Shown here: positions 43,950-64,000 of the stretch, piece by piece
Position numbering within the stretch: the first letter of the stretch is position 1
Layout of the letters: each line of letters starts with the position of its first letter
NCBI GenBank assembly: GCA_017428085.1
Contig: JAFRRP010000019.1
Coordinates: forward strand, 62,001 to 126,000
Length of the DNA stretch: 64,000 bases
Source: Clostridia bacterium
Lineage (GTDB): Bacteria > Bacillota > Clostridia > Oscillospirales > Acutalibacteraceae
Direction of reading: 5' to 3'
The notes under the pieces: generated by a model
Database searches by the model: none
Told to the model about the DNA's origin: nothing
The model's input: the letters and a program-made list of their open reading frames with translations, nothing else
Translations under genes and position numbers: made by a program

Positions 43950-44025
43950 TGGTCCGAGTGGCGAGACTTGAACTCACGGCCTCTTGACCCCCAGTCAAGC
44001 GCGCTCCCAACTGCGCCACACCCGG
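43950..44025 (-). tRNA. tRNA-Pro(GGG)
   Basis: 76 nt. Acceptor CCGGGTG pairs with CACTCGG (one G-T pair), D-arm GCGC...GCGC, anticodon stem CTTGA/TCAAG enclosing the loop CTGGGGG with anticodon GGG, and T-loop GTTCAAGTC. The 3' CCA is encoded. It reads CCC/CCU proline codons. Confidence 0.95.
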
Positions 44026-53520: not shown

Positions 53521-54057
53521 TTACGCCTCGTACCCGTAGCCCAGTTGAATCGCCTTCACGTTCAGCTCCAGCAGGTCGGCATGCTTGGCGGAGATGACCT
53601 TTTTCATCGCGTCCTCCAGCCCATCCATCTTGATAGCATCGCTCACCTTGATGAATTGGCCCATCATGACCATGTTGGCAAGAGTCGGCGCGCCCATGTC
53701 CGCCGCCAGCTTCGTGGCGGGGAGATAGCAAACCCTTACGTCTGTTCGCTCCACCTTGCGCTCGATCAGCGTGGAATCCACCAAAATCGTGCCGCCTGGC
53801 TTGACGGCGCCCTCATATTTGTCAAGAGAAGGCAGGTTCATGGCGATCAGCACGTCGGGCTCCGAAACGATGGGGGAGCCCACCGGCTCATCGCTAAGGA
53901 TCACACTGCAGTTGGCGGTGCCGCCGCGCATTTCGGGACCGTAGCTGGGCAGCCAGCTCAGCTCGCGGCCTTCAAACAGGCCCTTATAGGCGATGCACTT
54001 GCCGGCAAACAAAACGCCCTGCCCGCCGAATCCGGCGATCAATAATTCTGTCGTCAT
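53521..54057 (-). CDS. 2-oxoacid:ferredoxin oxidoreductase, gamma subunit
   Basis: 178 residues, catalytic-domain (POR gamma) type. FGGQGVLFAGKCIAY and SYGPEMRGGTANC are diagnostic. Works with the alpha, beta and delta subunits encoded just upstream to oxidise a 2-oxoacid to acyl-CoA, CO2 and reduced ferredoxin. Last gene of the operon, 1 bp after beta. Confidence 0.94.
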   Translation of the reverse strand: MTTELLIAGFGGQGVLFAGKCIAYKGLFEGRELSWLPSYGPEMRGGTANCSVILSDEPVGSPIVSEPDVLIAMNLPSLDKYEGAVKPGGTILVDSTLIERKVERTDVRVCYLPATKLAADMGAPTLANMVMMGQFIKVSDAIKMDGLEDAMKKVISAKHADLLELNVKAIQLGYGYEA

Positions 54058-54058
54058 C

Positions 54059-54808
54059 TTATTCCGCCTCCTTTGCGCTTCTGTCCTTGTAGACGCCGAG
54101 GGGATAGTAGGGGATCATCTTTTCCTCCACCCACTGCAGGGCCTTGTCCGGCGTCATCCCCCAGTTGGTGGGGCAGGAGGAAACCACTTCGATCAGGGAG
54201 AAGCCCTTTTTGTCGATCTGGTTCCGGAAGCCCTTCAGGATGGCCTTGCCCGCCTGCTTCACGTTTTTCACGTTGTTTACGGCAACTCTGGCGATGTACT
54301 CCGGCCCGTCCAGTTGGGACAGCATCTCGCACACGCGGATGGGATAACCGGCGGTGGCCACGTCTCTGCCGTAGGGGCTGGTCTGCGTCACCTGTCCCGG
54401 CAGGGAGGTCGGGGCCATCTGGCCGCCCGTCATGCCGTAGATGGCGTTATTGACAAAGATGACCGTGATGTTCTCGTTGCGAGTCGCGGCGTGGACGGTC
54501 TCCGCCATGCCGATGGAGGCGAGATCCCCGTCGCCCTGATAGCTGAAGATGATATTGTCCGGCAGGGCTCTTTTCAGACCGGTCGCCACGGCGGGCGCAC
54601 GCCCGTGGGCGGCCTCCACCATGTCGCAGGCAAAGTAGTTATAGGCCATGACCGCGCAGCCGACGGGGGCTACGCCGATGGTCTCGCCCTCAATGCCGAG
54701 GCTGTCGATGGCCTCGGCCACCAGACGGTGGATGATGCCATGGGTGCAGCCGGGGCAATAATGCAGCGGCGCGTCCGTTAAACTGTGTGGTTTCTGAAAT
54801 ACTACCAT
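54059..54808 (-). CDS. 2-oxoacid:ferredoxin oxidoreductase, beta (TPP) subunit
   Basis: 249 residues. Thiamine-diphosphate motif GDGDLASIG followed by NNAIYGMTGGQ, and a near-N-terminal CPGC loop that helps hold the cofactor region. Most like the VOR/KOR class. The start overlaps the alpha stop by 1 bp. Confidence 0.94.
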   Translation of the reverse strand: MVVFQKPHSLTDAPLHYCPGCTHGIIHRLVAEAIDSLGIEGETIGVAPVGCAVMAYNYFACDMVEAAHGRAPAVATGLKRALPDNIIFSYQGDGDLASIGMAETVHAATRNENITVIFVNNAIYGMTGGQMAPTSLPGQVTQTSPYGRDVATAGYPIRVCEMLSQLDGPEYIARVAVNNVKNVKQAGKAILKGFRNQIDKKGFSLIEVVSSCPTNWGMTPDKALQWVEEKMIPYYPLGVYKDRSAKEAE

Positions 54809-55869
54809 TATTCGTTACCTCCCGCCGATTTTCTGATGGCGTCCAGCACCTGATCCGGCGACGGGATGATGCCGCCGCACCGGCTGACAAGCGATACGGG
54901 CTTTTTGCATTCGGACGCCAGCTTCACGTCCTCGATCATCTGGCCCATGGAGAGTTCCACGCTGATGAACGCCTTTACCTTATCGGCTGCGGCAGCGATA
55001 GGGGCTTTGGGGAAGGGCCAAATGGTGATGGGACGGATGAGCCCCGCCTTGATTCCCTCTTTACGGGCGGCGTTGACGGCGTTGCGGCTCACTCTGGCCG
55101 CGATGCCGAAGGCCACTACGGCGATCTCTGCGTCGTCCATCAGGTACTCTTCCCAGCGCGTCTCATTGGCTTCCACTTCTTTATATCTCTCGTAGCGCGC
55201 CAGATTGGTCTGTTCCAGTTCCTCCGGTTGTAAATACAGGGAGTTGATGATATTGTGGGGGCGTTGCATTTTCGTTCCGGTGACGGCCCAGGGCTTATCT
55301 ACTGTGTGGCAGCTGGGCTCCGGCAGCGATACGGGTTCCATCATCTGGCCCATGGTGCCGTCCGCCAACAGCATGGCGGGCATGCGGTATTTGTCGGCCA
55401 GGTCGAAGGCCAGTGCCGTCAGGTCTGCCATCTCCTGCACGGAGGAGGGCGTCAGCACGATCAGGTGATAGTCGCCGTGTCCGCCGCCCTTGGTGGCCTG
55501 GAAATAGTCGCTCTGGCTGGGCTGGATGGAACCGAGCCCCGGTCCGCCGCGCTGCACGTTGACGATCAGCGCCGGCAGGTCCGCGCCAGCGATGTAGGAG
55601 ATGCCCTCCTGCTTCAATGAGACGCCCGGGCTGGAGGAGGAGGTCATGACGCGTTTGCCGGTACCGGCTACGCCGTAGACCATGTTGATGGCCGCGATCT
55701 CGCTTTCCGCCTGCAAAAACACGCCGCCGATCTTGGGCATGCGTTTGGCCATGTAGGCGGCCAGCTCCGTCTGGGGGGTGATCGGGTAGCCGAAGTAATG
55801 CAGGCAGCCCGCCCGGATGGCGGCCTCCGCAATGGCTTCGTTGCCCTTCATCAATACTTTTTCTGCCAT
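54808..55869 (-). CDS. 2-oxoacid:ferredoxin oxidoreductase, alpha subunit (VorB/KorA type)
   Basis: 353 residues, pyrimidine-binding domain plus C-terminal domain of the POR alpha family: GNEAIAEAAIRAGCLHYFGY, SSSPGVSLKQEG and GPGLGSIQPSQSDYFQ. Members of this VorB/KorA group use branched-chain 2-oxoacids or 2-oxoglutarate; the sequence alone does not decide. Starts 9 bp after the ferredoxin subunit gene. Confidence 0.93.
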   Translation of the reverse strand: MAEKVLMKGNEAIAEAAIRAGCLHYFGYPITPQTELAAYMAKRMPKIGGVFLQAESEIAAINMVYGVAGTGKRVMTSSSSPGVSLKQEGISYIAGADLPALIVNVQRGGPGLGSIQPSQSDYFQATKGGGHGDYHLIVLTPSSVQEMADLTALAFDLADKYRMPAMLLADGTMGQMMEPVSLPEPSCHTVDKPWAVTGTKMQRPHNIINSLYLQPEELEQTNLARYERYKEVEANETRWEEYLMDDAEIAVVAFGIAARVSRNAVNAARKEGIKAGLIRPITIWPFPKAPIAAAADKVKAFISVELSMGQMIEDVKLASECKKPVSLVSRCGGIIPSPDQVLDAIRKSAGGNE

Positions 55870-55878
55870 ACTCTCACC

Positions 55879-56085
55879 TCATTTTTCAACCGTGATCACG
55901 CAGTCCGGGCACATGGTAGCGCAGAACGCGCAGCCGATGCACTGGGATATGTCCGTTATCTCGGCGGGGAAATGCCCTTTTTTGTTGATCTTGTCCTTTG
56001 CGAGGACCAGCAGATGCCTGGGACAGGCCTCCACACACAGCCCGCAGCCCTTGCAGACGTCCGTCGCAAACGTCACTTTTGCCAT
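55879..56085 (-). CDS. 2-oxoacid:ferredoxin oxidoreductase, delta (ferredoxin) subunit
   Basis: 68 residues with two [4Fe-4S] motifs, CKGCGLCVEACP and CIGCAFCATMCP. Carries electrons from the TPP subunit to free ferredoxin. Precedes alpha, giving the order delta-alpha-beta-gamma usual for this class. Confidence 0.95.
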   Translation of the reverse strand: MAKVTFATDVCKGCGLCVEACPRHLLVLAKDKINKKGHFPAEITDISQCIGCAFCATMCPDCVITVEK

Positions 56086-56135: not shown

Positions 56136-56786
56136 CTAATATATTTTCTTTTGCAAATGCAATGGAAATACTTTTTTACATACAACGTCTTCCGCAATGC
56201 GTTCGTCAACGGAAGTGAACGCCAAAGACAGGCCGCACAGGTCGCATAATTCCTCTGTTTTGCCAAAGGTGACAACGACATCCGCCGGGGTGGTCTCCGC
56301 GCCAAGGTTGGAGTTATTGACGATCCCGGTAAAGTGCAATCCGGCTGCGGCCTCGATTTCCCGCATGACTTCCAGCGCGTCCTGTGCCGTCTGCGTCAGG
56401 GGCCGATAGAAGTTTACCACATAGAACAGGTCGAAGTCGTTTTCCTCCCGGATATAGGGGGCGAAACGCCCCAACGCATAGGCGCCACGGTCGTCTCCTC
56501 CGATATCCATGATGACATAACGGTCCTTTCGCTGAACCAACCCGTAAACGTTACTGGGCAGGGAAGGCAGGTCCACGTTGGAATTGGCAAACGGAAGGGC
56601 GATCAGCTCAATCCCGGCTTCCGCCAGTTCTGTTTCGCTGTCCTTGCTGCGGAAATAGGGATTGACGATATCAAGGTCGGCGACGGCCACCTGTTTTCCC
56701 TGTCTTTTCAACGCAAAGGCAAAGTTGACCGCGATATTCGTTTTGCCGCTGCCGTAATGGCCGCAAAAAAGATTGATACGTTTCAA
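56136..56786 (-). CDS. MinD/CobQ-like P-loop ATPase
   Basis: 216 residues. Deviant-free Walker A GHYGSGKTN near the N-terminus, switch DLDIVNPYFRSKD and Walker B-like VIMDIGGDDRGA. SIMIBI-class ATPase. It lies between an amidase gene and the oxidoreductase, a position that suggests a role in cofactor/cluster maturation or in controlling the complex, but no function is established from the sequence. 16 bp after the amidase. Confidence 0.85.
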   Translation of the reverse strand: MKRINLFCGHYGSGKTNIAVNFAFALKRQGKQVAVADLDIVNPYFRSKDSETELAEAGIELIALPFANSNVDLPSLPSNVYGLVQRKDRYVIMDIGGDDRGAYALGRFAPYIREENDFDLFYVVNFYRPLTQTAQDALEVMREIEAAAGLHFTGIVNNSNLGAETTPADVVVTFGKTEELCDLCGLSLAFTSVDERIAEDVVCKKVFPLHLQKKIY

Positions 56787-56802: not shown

Positions 56803-57582
56803 TCAATAAATATCCGTTCTTCTGTCGCCGAAAACATTAAACCGTTCCCGTAAGAGGGGAAGACCGGAAAGGTCGATCTCAGCGTCCAGCATACATTCGT
56901 TTCCGTCGGCAATAGCCAGCGTTTTCCCTGTGGGGGAAAAAACGCATGAACCGCCGCCGAAGCTGATCCCGGGCGCTTCTCCGCAGCCGTTGCACACGCA
57001 TACGAAGCACTGGTTTTCTATGGCGCGCGCATTGGCGAGGATATGAAGATGCTCCAATCTCTGTGCGGGCCACTGTGCCACTAAAAACAATACATCCAGT
57101 CCTTTAACTGCCATTGCTCTCGTCAGCTCCGGGAATCTGACGTCATAACAGATCTCTATGCCGCAGTTTACGCCGTCAAACTGAAACAAACCTAAATGAT
57201 CGCCCGGCGTAAACCACCTGTTTTCACCCATAACGGAAAACAAATGAGTTTTATCATACCGGCCTACAGTGTTGCCGGTCCTGTCGAAGGCGTAGCAGGC
57301 GTTGAACAGACGGTTACTGCGGCGCTCCGTGACGCTGCCCGCCAATACGTTGACGTTCTTTTCCGCGGAGAAAATGGCGCACAGCGTCCTGGTGCGGGAA
57401 GCATAATCGTCCGCCGTCTCATAAAGGTTTTCCCTAGGGAAAAAGCCCGTATTCCAAAGCTCCGGCAGCACGATCACGTCCGGTTCGCCGGCAGCAGCCT
57501 GCTCCAACAGGTCCGCGGCCCTGCGGAAGTTATCTTCAGGCGTGCCAAACGACGCCGCCATTTGTATCAATGAAATCTTCAT
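56803..57582 (-). CDS. Carbon-nitrogen hydrolase, probable omega-amidase
   Basis: 259 residues, nitrilase superfamily. Triad E41 (VLPELWNTGF), K111 (RYDKTHLF) and C145 (EICYDVRFPEL). Closest in style to omega-amidases, which hydrolyse 2-oxoglutaramate or 2-oxosuccinamate to the 2-oxoacid plus ammonia. Next to a 2-oxoacid:ferredoxin oxidoreductase this makes sense as a 2-oxoacid supply, but that link is inference. 5 bp after the ligase gene. Confidence 0.87.
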   Translation of the reverse strand: MKISLIQMAASFGTPEDNFRRAADLLEQAAAGEPDVIVLPELWNTGFFPRENLYETADDYASRTRTLCAIFSAEKNVNVLAGSVTERRSNRLFNACYAFDRTGNTVGRYDKTHLFSVMGENRWFTPGDHLGLFQFDGVNCGIEICYDVRFPELTRAMAVKGLDVLFLVAQWPAQRLEHLHILANARAIENQCFVCVCNGCGEAPGISFGGGSCVFSPTGKTLAIADGNECMLDAEIDLSGLPLLRERFNVFGDRRTDIY

Positions 57583-57587
57583 TTCTC

Positions 57588-59852
57588 TTATAACTTATTC
57601 CTCTGTATCTTTCCGCTGATGGTTTTGGGAAGCTCGTCCCGGAAGACCACCACGCGCGGGTATTTATAGGGCGCCGTATGCGTCTTGACGTAGTTCTGGA
57701 TCTCTTTTTTCAGTTCCTCGGTGGGCTTGGTACCCTTGGTCAAAACGACGCTGGCTTTTACGATCTGTCCGCGCACCTCGTCCGGTACGGCGGAAACACC
57801 GCATTCCAGCACGTAGGGCAGCTCCATGATGACGCTTTCGATCTCGAACGGTCCTATGCGGTAGCCGGAGGACTTGATCACGTCGTCCACGCGGCCCACA
57901 TACCAGATAAAGCCGTCCTCATCCCGCCAGGCGGTATCGCCGGTGTGGTAATAGCCGTCGTGCCAGGCTTCCTTTGTTTTTTCCTCGTCCCGGTAATATC
58001 CCTTGAACAGGCCGCAGGGGATCTTGTCGCTGGTCTTCACCACGATCTCTCCGGTTTCGCCGTCTGGCACGGAGTTGCCGTTTTCGTCCACGATATCCAC
58101 GTCGTACAGGGGAGTGGGCTTGCCCATGCTGCCCAGCTTATGGGTGTCGCCCATCAGGTTGGCGATGACAAGCGTCAGTTCGGTCTGGCCAAAGCCCTCC
58201 ATGATCCGCAGGCCAGTAGCCTTTTCGAACTGGCGGTAGACTTCGGGGTTCAGCGCCTCGCCGGCGGTGGTCATATGCTTCACGGAGGAGAAGTCGTACT
58301 TGGAGATATCCTCTTTGATGAGCATCCGCAGAATAGTGGGCGGAGCGCAGAACGTGGTGATCTGGTATTTGGCGAACATCGGCAGGATATCCGCCGCGTT
58401 AAACCGGTCGAAATCGTAGGTAAAAACAGCGCCTTCGCACAGCCATTGGCCGTAGATCTTTCCCCACAACGCCTTTCCCCAGCCGGTATCGGAGATGGTG
58501 AAGTGCAGGCCGTTATCGGAAACGCCGTGCCAGTATTTGGCAGTGATGTAATGACCCAGCGGGTATTTGTAGCTGTGGGTGGCGATCTTCGGGTAGCCGG
58601 TGGTGCCGGAAGAGAAGAACATCAGACTGGCGTCGTCGCCGCAGGGCGTGTATTCCGAACGGTAGAAATGGGCGCTGAACATAGGCTGCTCGCCGTCGAA
58701 GTCATGCCAGCCCTCACGTTTGCCTCCCACAAGGATCTTCGTTATGGCGCCGGGGCAGTTTTCCATGCCGATCTCCGCCTGATGCGCCACGTCGCCGTCT
58801 GCGGTGCAAAGGATGGCGCTGACGCCTGCGGCATTGAAACGGTACTCGAAATCGTGGGCCTGCAGCTGATGGGTGGCCGGAATGGCGACAGCCCCTAACT
58901 TGTGGAGCCCCACCAGAGCGAACCAAAACTGATAATGGCGCTTGAGCACAAGCATCACCCGGTCGCCCTGCTGAATACCGAGGGATTTGAAGTAGTTGGC
59001 GGCCTGATTGGAGGCGCGCTTTATATCGTTGAAGGTAAAGCGGCGCTCTACCTTGTTTTTATCCACGTGGATCATGGCCAGCTTGTCCGGGCTGCGGTTG
59101 GCGATGGCGTCCACCACGTCGAAACCGAAGTTGAACTGATCCTCGTTGACGAACTCGATTTTCTTCAGCAGGCCGTTTTCGTCCTCATAGGTGTTGATAA
59201 AGCTGTCACACACCATCTTCCGGTGGCCGGGATGGGGCATGACCAGCGTCTCGCGGATGGTCTCTTCCTTTTCATCCTCGCCGGGCAGGATAATGGCGCA
59301 AAAGACACAGTCCGCGCCGTCCACGGCGATCATGCCGTGGGGCGTGGAGGAGTTGTAGTAAATGCTGTCGCCTTCATGAAGCACCTCTTTATTGGTGCCC
59401 ACCTGAACCAGCAGAGAACCCTTCAGGATCAGGTCGAATTCCTGCCCGCTGTGGCGCGTCAAGTGGATCGGCTTGTTCTGCAGCTCTTCGGAGTAGTCGT
59501 ATTTCACCCAGTAGGGCTCGGCTATTTTTTTCTTGAACAGGGGAGCAAGGTTTTCGATGGTGATGCCTTCTTCTTTTGCGGTCTGCTGTCCCTCGCCCTT
59601 GCGGGTGACTGTGTAAGAAGACAGACGGGCGCTGCTGCCTTCCAGCAGCTCCGTGATGCTGATATCAAAGGCCAGGGCGCACTTATGGATAAACGTAAAG
59701 GGCAGGTCGACGGAGCCGCTTTCGTAAGCGACGTATTCCTCCGGCGTGACTTCGGTCAAAGTGGCCATCGTGGCCTCGTCGTAGCCCATGATCTCGCGCA
59801 TTTCACGGATACGGAAAGCGATCTCGGAGATCCTTGCATTGGCAGTCGTCAT
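57588..59852 (-). CDS. XRE-cupin-acyl-CoA ligase fusion
   Basis: 754 residues in three parts. Residues 5-70: XRE-type helix-turn-helix (IREMREIMGYDEATMATLTE). About 105-185: cupin (RHSGQEFDLILKGSLLVQVG, STPHGMIAV). About 225-754: AMP-forming acyl-CoA synthetase with adenylation loop SSGTTGYPK near residue 413, GFGQTE, YHTGDTAWRDEDGF and the C-terminal catalytic Lys in KTISGKIQRNKL. The family also exists elsewhere; the acid activated is unknown. GGAGG precedes the ATG at 59852. First gene downstream of a T-box leader and head of the six-gene 2-oxoacid unit. Whether the HTH still binds DNA is open. Confidence 0.9.
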   Translation of the reverse strand: MTTANARISEIAFRIREMREIMGYDEATMATLTEVTPEEYVAYESGSVDLPFTFIHKCALAFDISITELLEGSSARLSSYTVTRKGEGQQTAKEEGITIENLAPLFKKKIAEPYWVKYDYSEELQNKPIHLTRHSGQEFDLILKGSLLVQVGTNKEVLHEGDSIYYNSSTPHGMIAVDGADCVFCAIILPGEDEKEETIRETLVMPHPGHRKMVCDSFINTYEDENGLLKKIEFVNEDQFNFGFDVVDAIANRSPDKLAMIHVDKNKVERRFTFNDIKRASNQAANYFKSLGIQQGDRVMLVLKRHYQFWFALVGLHKLGAVAIPATHQLQAHDFEYRFNAAGVSAILCTADGDVAHQAEIGMENCPGAITKILVGGKREGWHDFDGEQPMFSAHFYRSEYTPCGDDASLMFFSSGTTGYPKIATHSYKYPLGHYITAKYWHGVSDNGLHFTISDTGWGKALWGKIYGQWLCEGAVFTYDFDRFNAADILPMFAKYQITTFCAPPTILRMLIKEDISKYDFSSVKHMTTAGEALNPEVYRQFEKATGLRIMEGFGQTELTLVIANLMGDTHKLGSMGKPTPLYDVDIVDENGNSVPDGETGEIVVKTSDKIPCGLFKGYYRDEEKTKEAWHDGYYHTGDTAWRDEDGFIWYVGRVDDVIKSSGYRIGPFEIESVIMELPYVLECGVSAVPDEVRGQIVKASVVLTKGTKPTEELKKEIQNYVKTHTAPYKYPRVVVFRDELPKTISGKIQRNKL

Positions 59853-59884
59853 AGAATAAACCTCCATTCGTTTGGGAAAATCAA

Positions 59885-60002
59885 TTCGGAATTCGGAGTT
59901 CGATCTGCATCAGCTGACAGAGATAAAATAGGGAGACAGGGAAATCTGTGCAAAATTGACCGTGTAACGTCAATTTTTAAGATCATATCTCCGCACTCCG
60001 AA
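59885..60002. repeat. 118-bp element with imperfect 14-bp terminal inverted repeats
   Basis: Ends TTCGGAATTCGGAG (59885-59898) and CTCCGCACTCCGAA (59989-60002): 12 of 14 bases match as an inversion. Inside is a perfect 9-bp palindrome AAAATTGAC / GTCAATTTT (59952-59977). It sits between the T-box terminator and the ligase ribosome site, so it is part of the read-through mRNA. MITE-like in form; no coding capacity. Confidence 0.55.
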
Positions 60003-60004
60003 CT

Positions 60005-60264
60005 AAAAAACGCCCGTCTCAATTACTTGAGACGAACGTCATTTGTCCGCGGTACCACTCAAATTGCGCTTGCGCGCCCCTCAGGTTCTTACAAACCTTA
60101 TGCTTTAACGCAGCATTACGGGAACCGCCTACTGATATAAAATACTTTCGGAGCTCCGGTTCGGAAGGGATGGGAACTGAAACGCTCTTTCGCCGGGATC
60201 TCACCCTTCCCGGCTCTCTGGAGAAGACCTCGTTTCTTCCGTCTTCGTCACAACCTTTGGTCAT
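60005..60264 (-). promoter_or_regulatory. T-box riboswitch leader
   Basis: tRNA-sensing leader upstream of the XRE-cupin-ligase gene. Conserved AGAGAG and GGGTGAGA apical Stem I elements are followed by the T-box GAGTGGTACCGCGG at 60047-60060, and then a terminator (ACGTTCGTCTC / GAGACGGGCGT, loop AAGTAATT) with six T at 60005-60010. Uncharged tRNA should favour the antiterminator. The specifier loop contains AGTTCCCAT after the helix GAAACG/CGTTTC; CCC (Pro) followed by A fits best, with TTC (Phe) and TCC (Ser) as alternatives. Confidence 0.9.
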
Positions 60265-60271
60265 TGATGTT

Positions 60272-60300
60272 ATGATATCAGCAAAGTCGTGGATTGTCAA
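60272..60300 (-). promoter_or_regulatory. Promoter of the T-box leader
   Basis: Perfect TTGACA, 17 bp, TATCAT on the minus strand, placing the start about 8 bases downstream, right at the 5' end of the T-box. Bases 60301-60392, between this and the fusion gene, are AT-rich, with no clear terminator seen. Confidence 0.85.
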
Positions 60301-60392: not shown

Positions 60393-62846
60393 TTACAGCC
60401 CCAGTTTTTTCAAGGATTCCTCTCGCATTTTGTATTTTAAAATCTTACCGGCGGCGTTCATGGGAAAGTCGGGGGTGAAGATGAAATATCTTGGTACCTT
60501 ATGGCGGGCGATATGCGCGTTGCCGAACTCGCGCATCTCGTTCTCGTCGGAGGTTTCTCCCTCTTTCAGAATGATCCACGCGCAGGCTTCTTCTCCGTAG
60601 CGCTTGTCCGGCACGCCCACCACCTGCACGTCGCGCACCTTTTTGTGCGTCAGGTAAAATTCCTCGATCTCGCGGGGGTACAGGTTCTCGCCGCCGCGGA
60701 TGATCATATCCTTAAGCCGCCCGGTGACTTTATAATATCCCTCCTGCGTGCGGCAGCAGATGTCGCCGCTGTGAAGCCAACCCTCCTTGTCGATGGCGGC
60801 GGCGGTGGCGTGGGGCATTTTGTAGTAGCCCTTCATGATGTTGAAGCCCCGGGCCACGAACTCGCCGTTTGCGCCGTCGGGCAGATCCTCGCCCGTCTCG
60901 GGGTCGATGATCTTGCACTCCACGTTGGGGAAAGCGCTGCCAACGGTCTCCACCCGCAGGTCCTCCGGCTCGTTGACCTCGCCCATCGTACAGCCGGGGG
61001 AGGATTCCGTCTGTCCGTACACGCTTAAGATCTCCCGCATGTTCATTTCGACTGCGGCCCGGCGCATAAGATCAGGCGGGCAGTTGGCGCCCGCCATGAT
61101 GCCGGTGCGCATATGGCTGAAATCGGTCTTGGCGAAATCCTCATGCGCGAACATGGCGATGAACATAGTCGGCACGCCGTTGAAGCAGGTGATCTTCTCC
61201 TCGTTGATGCAGGCAAGGGACGATTTGGGGGAGAAATACGGCAGCGGGCAGATGGTGCCGCCGTGCGTCATCATGCTGGTCATGGAAAGCACCATGCCGA
61301 AGCAGTGGAACATGGGCACCTGGATCATCATGCGGTCCGCGGTGGAAAGGTCCATGCGGTCGCCGATGACCTTGCCGTTGTTGACGATATTCCGGTGCGT
61401 AAGCATCACGCCTTTGGGAAAGCCGGTGGTGCCGCTGGTGTACTGCATATTGCACACGTCGTCGGGTTTTACCATGGCGGCGCGGCGGCGCACTTCCTGT
61501 ACCGGAACCAGAGAAGCGCGATCCATAAATTCCTCAAACGTCAGGCAGCCGTCCATGCGGAAGCCCACGGTGACCACATTTCGCAGGAAGGGCAGCGCCT
61601 TGGAATACAGCGGCTGTCCGGGCTGAAGGTCTTTCAGCTCCGGGCAAAGCTCTTCCATGATCTCTTTATAGTCGGAATCCTTGCAGCTTTCGATCATCAC
61701 CAGCGTATGGGTATCCGACTGGCGCAGCAGATATTCCGCCTCGTGGATCTTGTAGGCGGTGTTGACGGTCACCAGTACCGCGCCGATCTTTACCGTGGCC
61801 CAGAAGGTCAGGAACCACTCCGGTACGTTGGTGGCCCAGATGGCCACATGGTGACCGGGCTTGACGCCCAATGAGATCAGCGCCGCCGCTGCGGCGTCCA
61901 CGTCCTTACGGAATTGGGAGTACGTGCGCTTGTAATCCGGCGCGGAATAGCGGATGGCCCACTGATCGGGGAAGGTTTCCGCCATTACATCCAGCACCTC
62001 GGAAAAGGTCTTGTCGATCACTTCATACTTGGGCCATACGAAGCTGCCGGAACCGGCCCGGTTGCGATACAATCCCTGCGTCGGCGTCTGGGAACGGTCT
62101 ACGCCCGCCAGGTAGCTGTTGAAATGCGTCAGCACGATATCCGGATCGGATATATCGTCGTTATGATCCACGCAGACGAAGCCCTCATAATTCAGGGAAC
62201 GCAGCGCGTCAAGATATTCCTGTACAGGAAGCTCGCCCTCGCCGATCAGCACGTCGGTATCGTCCTTCCGGTCGCCCAGCCGCACGTACCTGATATAAGC
62301 GCCCAGCGTGCGGATAGTGTCCTCCGCGCTCTCCTTGGCGGAAAAGAAAGTCTCGCGTACGTTCCACGCGGCGCCAAGAGAGGCGGAAGCGAAATAATTG
62401 ATGATATCCAGCACGTTCTGCGTATCGGCCAGACAGCGTTCCGTTTCAAACAGAAGCGAAACGTCCTCCGCCTCCGCTTTTTTGATGGCCGGCAGCAGCG
62501 CGTCGGCAAGCGCTTGCGGTTCATGCTTTTCATTTATTCTGACAATGACGTTTTCCACGCCGGCCATGGCGGCGGCGTCAACGTATCGCGTGAGCAATTC
62601 GGAGGAAACGTCGCATTGATCAAGAAATCCCGGCACGGTAAGGGCGGCAACGGTCAGGCCGCGGTTGTGCAGCTTGCGCTTGGCGTCCGGCACGTTGCCG
62701 CGGATCAGGATGCTGTCCTTTTGCGTCTTGCGTTCCGTCAGGGCGTCATACAACTCAAATCCGGCGTAACTGTAATCATATGCTGTTTTGCAGAGGTCCA
62801 GGAATGAGCCCCGTTTGACCTCGCTTGTCGAAAAAGCTAATTTCAT
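60393..62846 (-). CDS. TIM-barrel (sugar isomerase-like) / acyl-CoA ligase fusion
   Basis: 817 residues. Residues 1-255: AP-endonuclease-2 / xylose-isomerase-like TIM barrel (MKLAFSTSEVKRGSFLDL, VSLLFETERCLADT, GFVCVDHNDDISD). Residues 285-817: AMP-forming acyl-CoA synthetase with adenylation loop YTSGTTGFPKG near 467, SVYGQTESSPG, LHSGDICCR and the C-terminal NAAGKILKYKMRE with the catalytic Lys. Fusion of an isomerase-type barrel to a ligase is unusual. Its ATG overlaps the stop of the LeuA-like gene by 1 bp, so the two are coupled. No promoter of its own was seen; substrate unknown. Confidence 0.87.
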   Translation of the reverse strand: MKLAFSTSEVKRGSFLDLCKTAYDYSYAGFELYDALTERKTQKDSILIRGNVPDAKRKLHNRGLTVAALTVPGFLDQCDVSSELLTRYVDAAAMAGVENVIVRINEKHEPQALADALLPAIKKAEAEDVSLLFETERCLADTQNVLDIINYFASASLGAAWNVRETFFSAKESAEDTIRTLGAYIRYVRLGDRKDDTDVLIGEGELPVQEYLDALRSLNYEGFVCVDHNDDISDPDIVLTHFNSYLAGVDRSQTPTQGLYRNRAGSGSFVWPKYEVIDKTFSEVLDVMAETFPDQWAIRYSAPDYKRTYSQFRKDVDAAAAALISLGVKPGHHVAIWATNVPEWFLTFWATVKIGAVLVTVNTAYKIHEAEYLLRQSDTHTLVMIESCKDSDYKEIMEELCPELKDLQPGQPLYSKALPFLRNVVTVGFRMDGCLTFEEFMDRASLVPVQEVRRRAAMVKPDDVCNMQYTSGTTGFPKGVMLTHRNIVNNGKVIGDRMDLSTADRMMIQVPMFHCFGMVLSMTSMMTHGGTICPLPYFSPKSSLACINEEKITCFNGVPTMFIAMFAHEDFAKTDFSHMRTGIMAGANCPPDLMRRAAVEMNMREILSVYGQTESSPGCTMGEVNEPEDLRVETVGSAFPNVECKIIDPETGEDLPDGANGEFVARGFNIMKGYYKMPHATAAAIDKEGWLHSGDICCRTQEGYYKVTGRLKDMIIRGGENLYPREIEEFYLTHKKVRDVQVVGVPDKRYGEEACAWIILKEGETSDENEMREFGNAHIARHKVPRYFIFTPDFPMNAAGKILKYKMREESLKKLGL

Positions 62847-64000
62847 CAGCCGTTCTCCTCAAAGACGATCTTGTTCAGCGCGTTGAGATACGCCCGGATA
62901 CTGGCGCCCACGATATCCGTGGAGATGCCGTTGCCGGAATACAGTTTTCCACTGTTGCGCAGCTTTACAAGGGCGGCGCCCAACGCTTCCTTACCCTCGG
63001 TAACGGCCTGGATCTGGAAGTCGTCCAGCTCGAAATGGCAGCCCACCGCCTGCTCAATAGCGCGGAAAGAGGCGTCGATTGGGCCGTCGCCGTCGCTGAC
63101 GCCGGATAAGACCTGCCCGTCGCGCAGCAGCGTCACATGGGCGAGGGAAGCGGTCTTGTTGCCGCAGTTGGCAAGGTAGCTTTCCAAATGATAGGCGGAG
63201 GGGGCCTGCATGGCGTAACTGGCGATCAGCGCCTCCAGCTCTCGCTTCCCCACGGTGCTCTTGCGTTCACACACCTGTTTCACGGCCTTCAGAACCTTTC
63301 CCAGGTCCTCTTCCGTCAGCTCATAGCCAAGCTTCTGGGCGGCAAGGGAAACATCTGCGATCGTGCTGTCTTCGTCCAGATACACTGTCTCCCCGTCGTT
63401 AGCGTCCGTTGTGGGCTGCAGCGATGCGGCGTCCAGTCGGTTCAGCATGGAGGCGATATCGGAATGGATATGCAGGGAATCGAGAGCGCAGGCAGCTCCC
63501 AGCTCTTCGCCCTTATTTTTCAGCAGTTTTGATACGTTGTCCGTAGCAAGGCCGCCGCCGGGTGTGCAGGCGCATTTCAACCCGTCCGCGCCGGAACGAA
63601 CGGCAGCGACGGCGTTGGCGGAAGCGAGAGACAGGGCGTCGGAGCATCTGACGTATACGGGTACCGAGACGCTCTGTTTTACCATAGACACCAGATTGCC
63701 GAAATCCTCCGGCAGCAGGCAGCCGTCATCATCGCAAAGACATACGGAGGAAGCGCCTTCCGTCTGCGCGGCTTTACAGATGGACGTAAGGAATTCGGGA
63801 TCGGCTCGCGTGGCGTCCAGCGCGGCAAACTCCACGACGGGGCAAAGCGCCTTTGCGGCGGCAATCAGCTCCGTCGCTTTTTTCAGCATGGCTTTATCTT
63901 TCAGATGATAGGTGTATTCCATTTTCAGCGTGGAGACAGGAAGCTCAACGATCAGGCAGGGGCGGGAGGCGCCGCTGACGCACTGCCACGCCTCATCGAC
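62846..64000 (-). CDS. LeuA-like protein lacking metal-binding histidines (5' end outside window)
   Basis: 384 residues visible; the frame stays open to the window edge. The visible part matches the second half of a 2-isopropylmalate / homocitrate synthase barrel plus the C-terminal LeuA dimer (regulatory) domain, with GNGISTDIVGASIRAYLNAL at its end. The segment that should read H-x-H-N-D-x-G is RCSDALSLASANA, and the usual ERAGN motif is replaced by CTPGGGLATD. The metal-site residues are therefore missing and classic activity is unlikely. Upstream of, and coupled to, the TIM-barrel/ligase fusion gene. Confidence 0.83.
   Translation of the reverse strand, partial: VDEAWQCVSGASRPCLIVELPVSTLKMEYTYHLKDKAMLKKATELIAAAKALCPVVEFAALDATRADPEFLTSICKAAQTEGASSVCLCDDDGCLLPEDFGNLVSMVKQSVSVPVYVRCSDALSLASANAVAAVRSGADGLKCACTPGGGLATDNVSKLLKNKGEELGAACALDSLHIHSDIASMLNRLDAASLQPTTDANDGETVYLDEDSTIADVSLAAQKLGYELTEEDLGKVLKAVKQVCERKSTVGKRELEALIASYAMQAPSAYHLESYLANCGNKTASLAHVTLLRDGQVLSGVSDGDGPIDASFRAIEQAVGCHFELDDFQIQAVTEGKEALGAALVKLRNSGKLYSGNGISTDIVGASIRAYLNALNKIVFEENG

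Follow-up and report, generated by a model that had tools for sequence, protein, structure and literature searches.

T-box leaders switch on with uncharged tRNA (PMC7583486). The leader described here lies in a window of 64,000 nucleotides, the whole stretch of DNA that was analysed, and shares with the transcriptional T-boxes of Rfam family RF00230 (ileS/ilv class) the K-turn region, the AGAG distal element, a specifier one base from the basal helix, Stem III, the UGGN bulge, and the antiterminator and competing terminator. Unlike the known T-boxes of this family, it is predicted to govern genes for branched-chain fatty-acid activation and a 2-oxoacid:ferredoxin oxidoreductase, and it is without a recognisable AGUA/GAA loop E, a compensating four-base-pair helix flanking the codon instead.

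The requirement of rumen bacteria for isobutyrate and 2-methylbutyrate, from which valine and isoleucine are built, has been known since the 1960s. Conversion of isobutyrate to valine and of 2-methylbutyrate to isoleucine in the rumen is credited to Allison and Peel (1971) and Robinson and Allison (1969) in PMC7356843, and a route from branched fatty acids to amino acids is described in methanogens (PMC10658910). With this reductive carboxylation route (Allison and co-workers; PMC7356843, PMC10658910), the pathway predicted here has in common the steps of activation, carboxylation and transamination, and the habitats. It differs in that a specific gene set, tRNA-based regulation and separate ligases for isoleucine and valine are proposed.

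The enzymes also have described counterparts. The AMP-forming ligase domain is common to the window protein, Macs of Methanosarcina acetivorans (3ETC) and S. aureus MbcS, and the window ligase further shares with 3ETC a Gly at position 464 and the tryptophan called Trp259, but it adds an N-terminal XRE-cupin part to what is present in 3ETC and MbcS. The oxidoreductase resembles the VorABCD-type 2-ketoisovalerate:ferredoxin oxidoreductase in having alpha, beta, gamma and ferredoxin subunits together and a match to the VorB model above cut-off, but is predicted to be carboxylating, and its beta subunit fell below the cut-offs of the named families. The T-box family and the pathway are each already known, and what would be new, judged against the open-access literature, is their combination. 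No T-box on a pathway from branched fatty acids to amino acids was found described in that literature, which is weak evidence of novelty as most subscription journals lie outside its scope.

The T-box leader and its structure

The preliminary description of this DNA had proposed a complete T-box with its own promoter. All of the elements listed below are on the minus strand.

60272–60300 (−): sigma-70-type promoter, TTGACA-17-TATCAT, with 11 of 12 consensus positions and a TG preceding the second hexamer (identified by consensus match only)
60025–60260 (−): T-box leader, Stem I to antiterminator (RF00230; Stem I covariation in 35 homologues)
60158–60255 (−): Stem I, as aligned with 34 homologues (alignment, covariation)
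60169–60171 (−): specifier codon AUC (Ile), one base 5′ of the basal helix GAAG/CUUC
60047–60060 (−): T-box bulge and antiterminator core, GAGUGGUACCGCGG (sequence, RF00230 alignment); the UGGU would pair with a tRNA ending in ACCA
60009–60040 (−): intrinsic terminator, 14 pairs and a T run, which excludes the antiterminator (fold −21 kcal/mol, z −7.3)

In a covariance-model search, RF00230 matched positions 60260–60025 over model positions 1–219 with 78.3 bits (E = 2.4e-16). This score falls short of the gathering score of 93, as do those of five of the seven T-boxes that the RF00230 search found in the whole genome, and the homologous leader before the same gene in relatives reached up to 116 bits (G001:C110:9220-9450). 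A UGGN bulge and an antiterminator competing with a terminator are present in the window leader. Together with the near-consensus promoter and the intrinsic terminator, these features confirmed that the leader is a real T-box, predicted to act on transcription, as had been proposed.

RNAalifold gave a consensus of only three pairs for Stem I, owing to its variable middle, and single-sequence folding of Stem I was uninformative, being no better than shuffles. The Stem I structure was therefore named and its pairs counted. Across the 35 sequences, 87.1% of cells were paired in the named structure compared with 73.2% in column shuffles, none of 500 of which was as high, and at best 61% were paired when the structure was slid along the alignment. 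The basal helix beside the specifier was paired in 100% of cells of the 35 aligned Stem I sequences, with compensatory changes. The loop E (S-turn) signature beside the codon was nearly absent from the ligase leaders (GAA in 0 of 52, AGUA in 2 of 52); in its place the codon is flanked by the four-base-pair helix, which also showed compensatory changes and was 92% paired in the isoleucine class. Loop E (AGUA with GAA) is usual but not universal, so its lack was treated as a variant trait and the motif was not taken as defining a T-box. The unusual specifier loop may explain the sub-threshold Rfam score.

Between the terminator and the ligase gene lie approximately 140 bases of additional leader. 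This stretch contains an inverted repeat, TTCGGAGTGCGGAG ... CTCCGAATTCCGAA, at 59884–60005 of the window. Origin of the repeat from a MITE or other mobile element was ruled out, as the genome contains only one copy of this stretch.

Reading of the specifier codon

The specifier was read from the structure as three bases followed by one base and then by the 3′ side of the helix closing the specifier loop, the frame ('+0') that is also the first choice of TBDB (PMC7778990). Scoring by script favoured a GA motif and complementary helices and ignored codon identity. By this rule the specifier of the window T-box is AUC, and the leader is predicted to be isoleucine-specific. As a control, the same position read AAC before asnS, ACC before thrS and GCC before alaS of this genome, and in the Rfam alignment the codon was UUC for pheT and UGG for the gene of a trpX-like binding protein; the cognate amino acid was thus read at all five of the other T-boxes of the genome.

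In related genomes, each of the 62 leaders decoded before homologous ligases and leuA genes carried a branched-chain codon at the specifier, either AUC (Ile), GUA or GUC (Val), or CUC (Leu). The codon followed the gene context, with Ile or Val before ligases and Leu before the leuA operon. In the 80 species loci, 119 of 121 decoded T-boxes read Ile, Val or Leu, and the two odd reads (AAC in L108 and UUU in L118) each came from the second unit of a tandem, poorly parsed by the script. The base after the codon was C in 15 of 33 Ile-type leaders, a position more often taken by a purine.

Among the 30 of 37 tRNA loci that were typed in the draft assembly, tRNA-Ile(GAU) was absent. A tRNA-Val(UAC), which would serve a Val-T-box paralogue of the ligase, is present in the genome. 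The Trp-codon (UGG) T-box of the same genome (G000:C76) precedes a trpX-like ABC transporter binding protein gene (L092:4774-5835).

The operon and its acyl-CoA ligase

The genes downstream of the leader, all on the minus strand, are as follows.

57588–59852 (−): XRE-cupin-acyl-CoA ligase (AMP-forming), Ile type (profile matches; Gly464 is numbered from ATG 59867)
56803–57582 (−): carbon-nitrogen hydrolase (profile match), in only some homologous operons
56136–56786 (−): ParA/CbiA-type P-loop NTPase (profile match), nearly always in homologous operons
55879–56085 (−): 68-aa ferredoxin-type delta subunit (2-oxoacid oxidoreductase delta families, below cut-offs)
54808–55869 (−): VorB-like alpha subunit, 3-methyl-2-oxobutanoate oxidoreductase family (NF005507, 559 bits, cut-off 399)
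54059–54808 (−): TPP-binding beta subunit (TIGR02177 and relatives, below cut-offs)
53521–54057 (−): gamma subunit (TIGR02175, 81.9 bits, cut-off 81.1)

These domain and subunit matches bear out the earlier report that the operon behind the T-box encodes an XRE-cupin-acyl-CoA ligase together with a ferredoxin-linked 2-oxoacid oxidoreductase; the XRE HTH match falls slightly under the Pfam cut-off. ATG 59852 was preferred as the start of the ligase because the GGAGG at 59865–59861 overlaps ATG 59867. The acyl-CoA step of the operon is represented by the AMP-forming ligase domains (PF00501/PF13193) alone, and profile search found no energy-conserving ADP-forming synthetase or Ptb-Buk in the operon. 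The NTPase is a candidate Fe-S assembly factor or carrier. A second VorB-like gene is located outside the operon (G000:C12:21941-22999; 433 bits, above cut-off).

The best PDB relative of the ligase was 3ETC (640 bits over 532 residues), a Methanosarcina enzyme that prefers 2-methylbutyrate (PMC10455477). The best NCBIfam relative was MbcS (431 bits, against an equivalog cut-off of 850), which is selective for 2-methylbutyrate and isobutyrate and poor on isovalerate (PMC10026030). These two acids have the skeletons of isoleucine and valine, not of leucine, in agreement with the codons found before the ligases. By this resemblance, the window ligase is predicted to use the same branched substrates.

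Residue 464, in the motif SDTGW[G/A]K, was Gly in 29 of 29 Ile and Ala in 17 of 17 Val ligases (46 of 46 in the discovery set). Codon and residue 464 also agreed in 105 of 107 loci outside the discovery set, a count from which 3 of the 80 species loci were removed as duplicates of the first set. As the loci share descent, neither this count nor that of the discovery set represents independent events. The exceptions, L154 and L175, have an Ile T-box yet Ala at 464; the operon of L175 shows a single ligase, which might be dual-specific. Column 464 was the one clear ligase-domain column to split Val from Ile types in both contrasts. A second flagged column, 259, varies strongly and lies close to the edge of the domain; further flagged columns are in the XRE-cupin part. 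The equivalent residue is Gly in 3ETC, Ala in 4-hydroxybutyrate ligase and Val in acetyl-CoA synthetase, the last of which we take to be Val310 of Salmonella Acs, lining the acetate pocket. Placing the codon labels on a maximum-likelihood tree built from 55 ligases took 8 changes compared with 23.7 for shuffled labels, and Val-type ligases formed two separate, well-supported groups, one of which is nested beside the Ile group.

Predicted pathway and its distribution

The leader is very probably a transcriptional isoleucine T-box, placed on an operon for building isoleucine out of scavenged branched-chain fatty acids, to which the Val-T-box paralogue would add valine. Uncharged tRNA-Ile would pair with both the AUC of Stem I and the UGGU bulge, whereupon the antiterminator would form and the operon be transcribed. 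The AMP-forming ligase would convert 2-methylbutyrate to 2-methylbutyryl-CoA and the Val-T-box paralogue isobutyrate to isobutyryl-CoA, the VorBAC-ferredoxin complex would form the 2-oxo acid from the CoA ester and CO2 by reductive carboxylation, and an aminotransferase would yield the finished amino acid. We infer the tRNA response, the substrates, the carboxylating direction and the roles of the XRE-cupin part, NTPase and hydrolase.

In relatives from the genus, family and order, most genes closely homologous to the fused ligase have a T-box before them; none was detectable before some homologues, 14 in the species loci and several remote ones among the relatives. A frequent gene order, seen in many species, is Ile T-box, ligase A, Val T-box, ligase B, NTPase, ferredoxin, VorB, VorA and VorC. 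In this genome the Ile unit keeps the oxidoreductase and the Val unit is located elsewhere; the only close paralogue of the ligase is on contig C29, with a T-box directly before it. All 16 genomes with two decoded T-box ligases had one Ile and one Val leader. Most of the named loci belong to genomes from the rumen or gut. Distant homologues (G050:C97, G036:C27, G045:C2 and others) matched the full fusion with an internal stop codon; the XRE-cupin part and the ligase may be separate neighbours there, and the fusion derived.

No match to ilvC or ilvD above cut-off was found in this genome, which is 95.7% complete and has one gene of the branched-chain-aminotransferase type (PF01063). Among 147 genomes of the order, each at least 90% complete, ilvC was present in 9 of 50 with the fused ligase and in 67 of 97 without it (p = 3.4e-9, Fisher test). 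Counted by genus, the level at which phylogeny was handled, the Fisher test gave p = 1.4e-6. In a smaller sample, comparison of the T-box ligase with ilvC gave p = 0.0009, and ilvD showed no significant association. The fused ligase and ilvC thus largely exclude each other across the order, 9 of 50 genomes keeping both. Apart from these exceptions, the order-wide anticorrelation and the missing ilvC and ilvD matches here are consistent with replacement of the acetohydroxy acid route by the route of the operon.

VOR-type enzymes are reversible and are usually described as oxidative. The synthesis direction is supported by the switch on uncharged tRNA, the AMP-forming ligase, the substrates of the ligase relatives and the lack of ilvC and ilvD, and on the same grounds the 'oxidation operon' of the preliminary description was probably assigned the wrong direction. 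Read as biosynthetic, the operon places the T-box on amino-acid biosynthesis after all, and the surprise of a catabolic target outside synthetases, biosynthesis and transport falls away, to be replaced by a different one.

We consider improbable an oxidative, Stickland-like operon, in which the oxidoreductase would convert amino-acid-derived branched 2-oxo acids to acyl-CoA with reduction of ferredoxin, the ligase would handle the acids and the T-box would be a flux sensor. The wide annotation of VOR/KOR families as oxidative and the ferredoxin gene in the operon would suit it, but the T-box would then induce catabolism during starvation for the very amino acid being destroyed, and an AMP-forming ligase spends ATP. 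To conserve energy, the operon would have to include an ADP-forming synthetase or a phosphotransacylase-kinase pair, neither of which was seen in it, and the anticorrelation with ilvC is unexpected for catabolism. Supply of branched membrane-lipid primers, with the ligase making acyl-CoA for FabH as MbcS does in S. aureus and the oxidoreductase providing the same CoA esters from 2-oxo acids, is very unlikely: the best NCBIfam match has such a role, but a sensor of tRNA responds to charging and not to the demand for lipids, and Ile/Val-split ligases beside a VOR set in ilvC-less genomes better fit amino-acid supply. The proline-specific T-box first suggested is almost certainly wrong. The tRNA-Pro(GGG) gene mentioned with it does lie at 43950–44025. 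CCC does occur twice beside the specifier in the window, but alignment of related leaders showed CCC in only 12 and 15 of 33 Ile-type leaders at the two possible places and no proline codon there in Val-type leaders, and the covarying basal helix places AUC in the codon position.

Within the biosynthetic reading of the operon, it appears likely that Clostridia of the rumen and gut in which the acetohydroxy acid route was lost share a widespread regulon not described before, with two paralogous branched-acid ligases, each under its own T-box. The leader codon and one acyl-pocket residue would have switched together more than once in its evolution, so that the RNA leader names the substrate. Such a regulon, found in dozens of uncultured gut and rumen lineages, would supply a concrete gene set behind the long-known nutrient need, a regulator of known logic and a substrate assignment for the two paralogues. 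It would also be a genomic marker for organisms dependent on the branched-chain acids of their neighbours, with relevance to culturing and to the feeding of isoacids to livestock, and the T-box could serve as annotation, its codon indicating which branched acid an unassigned ligase should use.

Upstream of the leader, at 60393–64000 (−) of the window, is an operon with a LeuA-like gene, truncated where the window ends, and a TIM-barrel/fatty-acid-CoA ligase fusion. No T-box was detected for this pair in this genome, and in the relatives L041, L048, L051, L054, L057, L059 and L076 the pair has its own Leu (CUC) T-box. The TIM-barrel/ligase fusion might serve the leucine or isovalerate branch.
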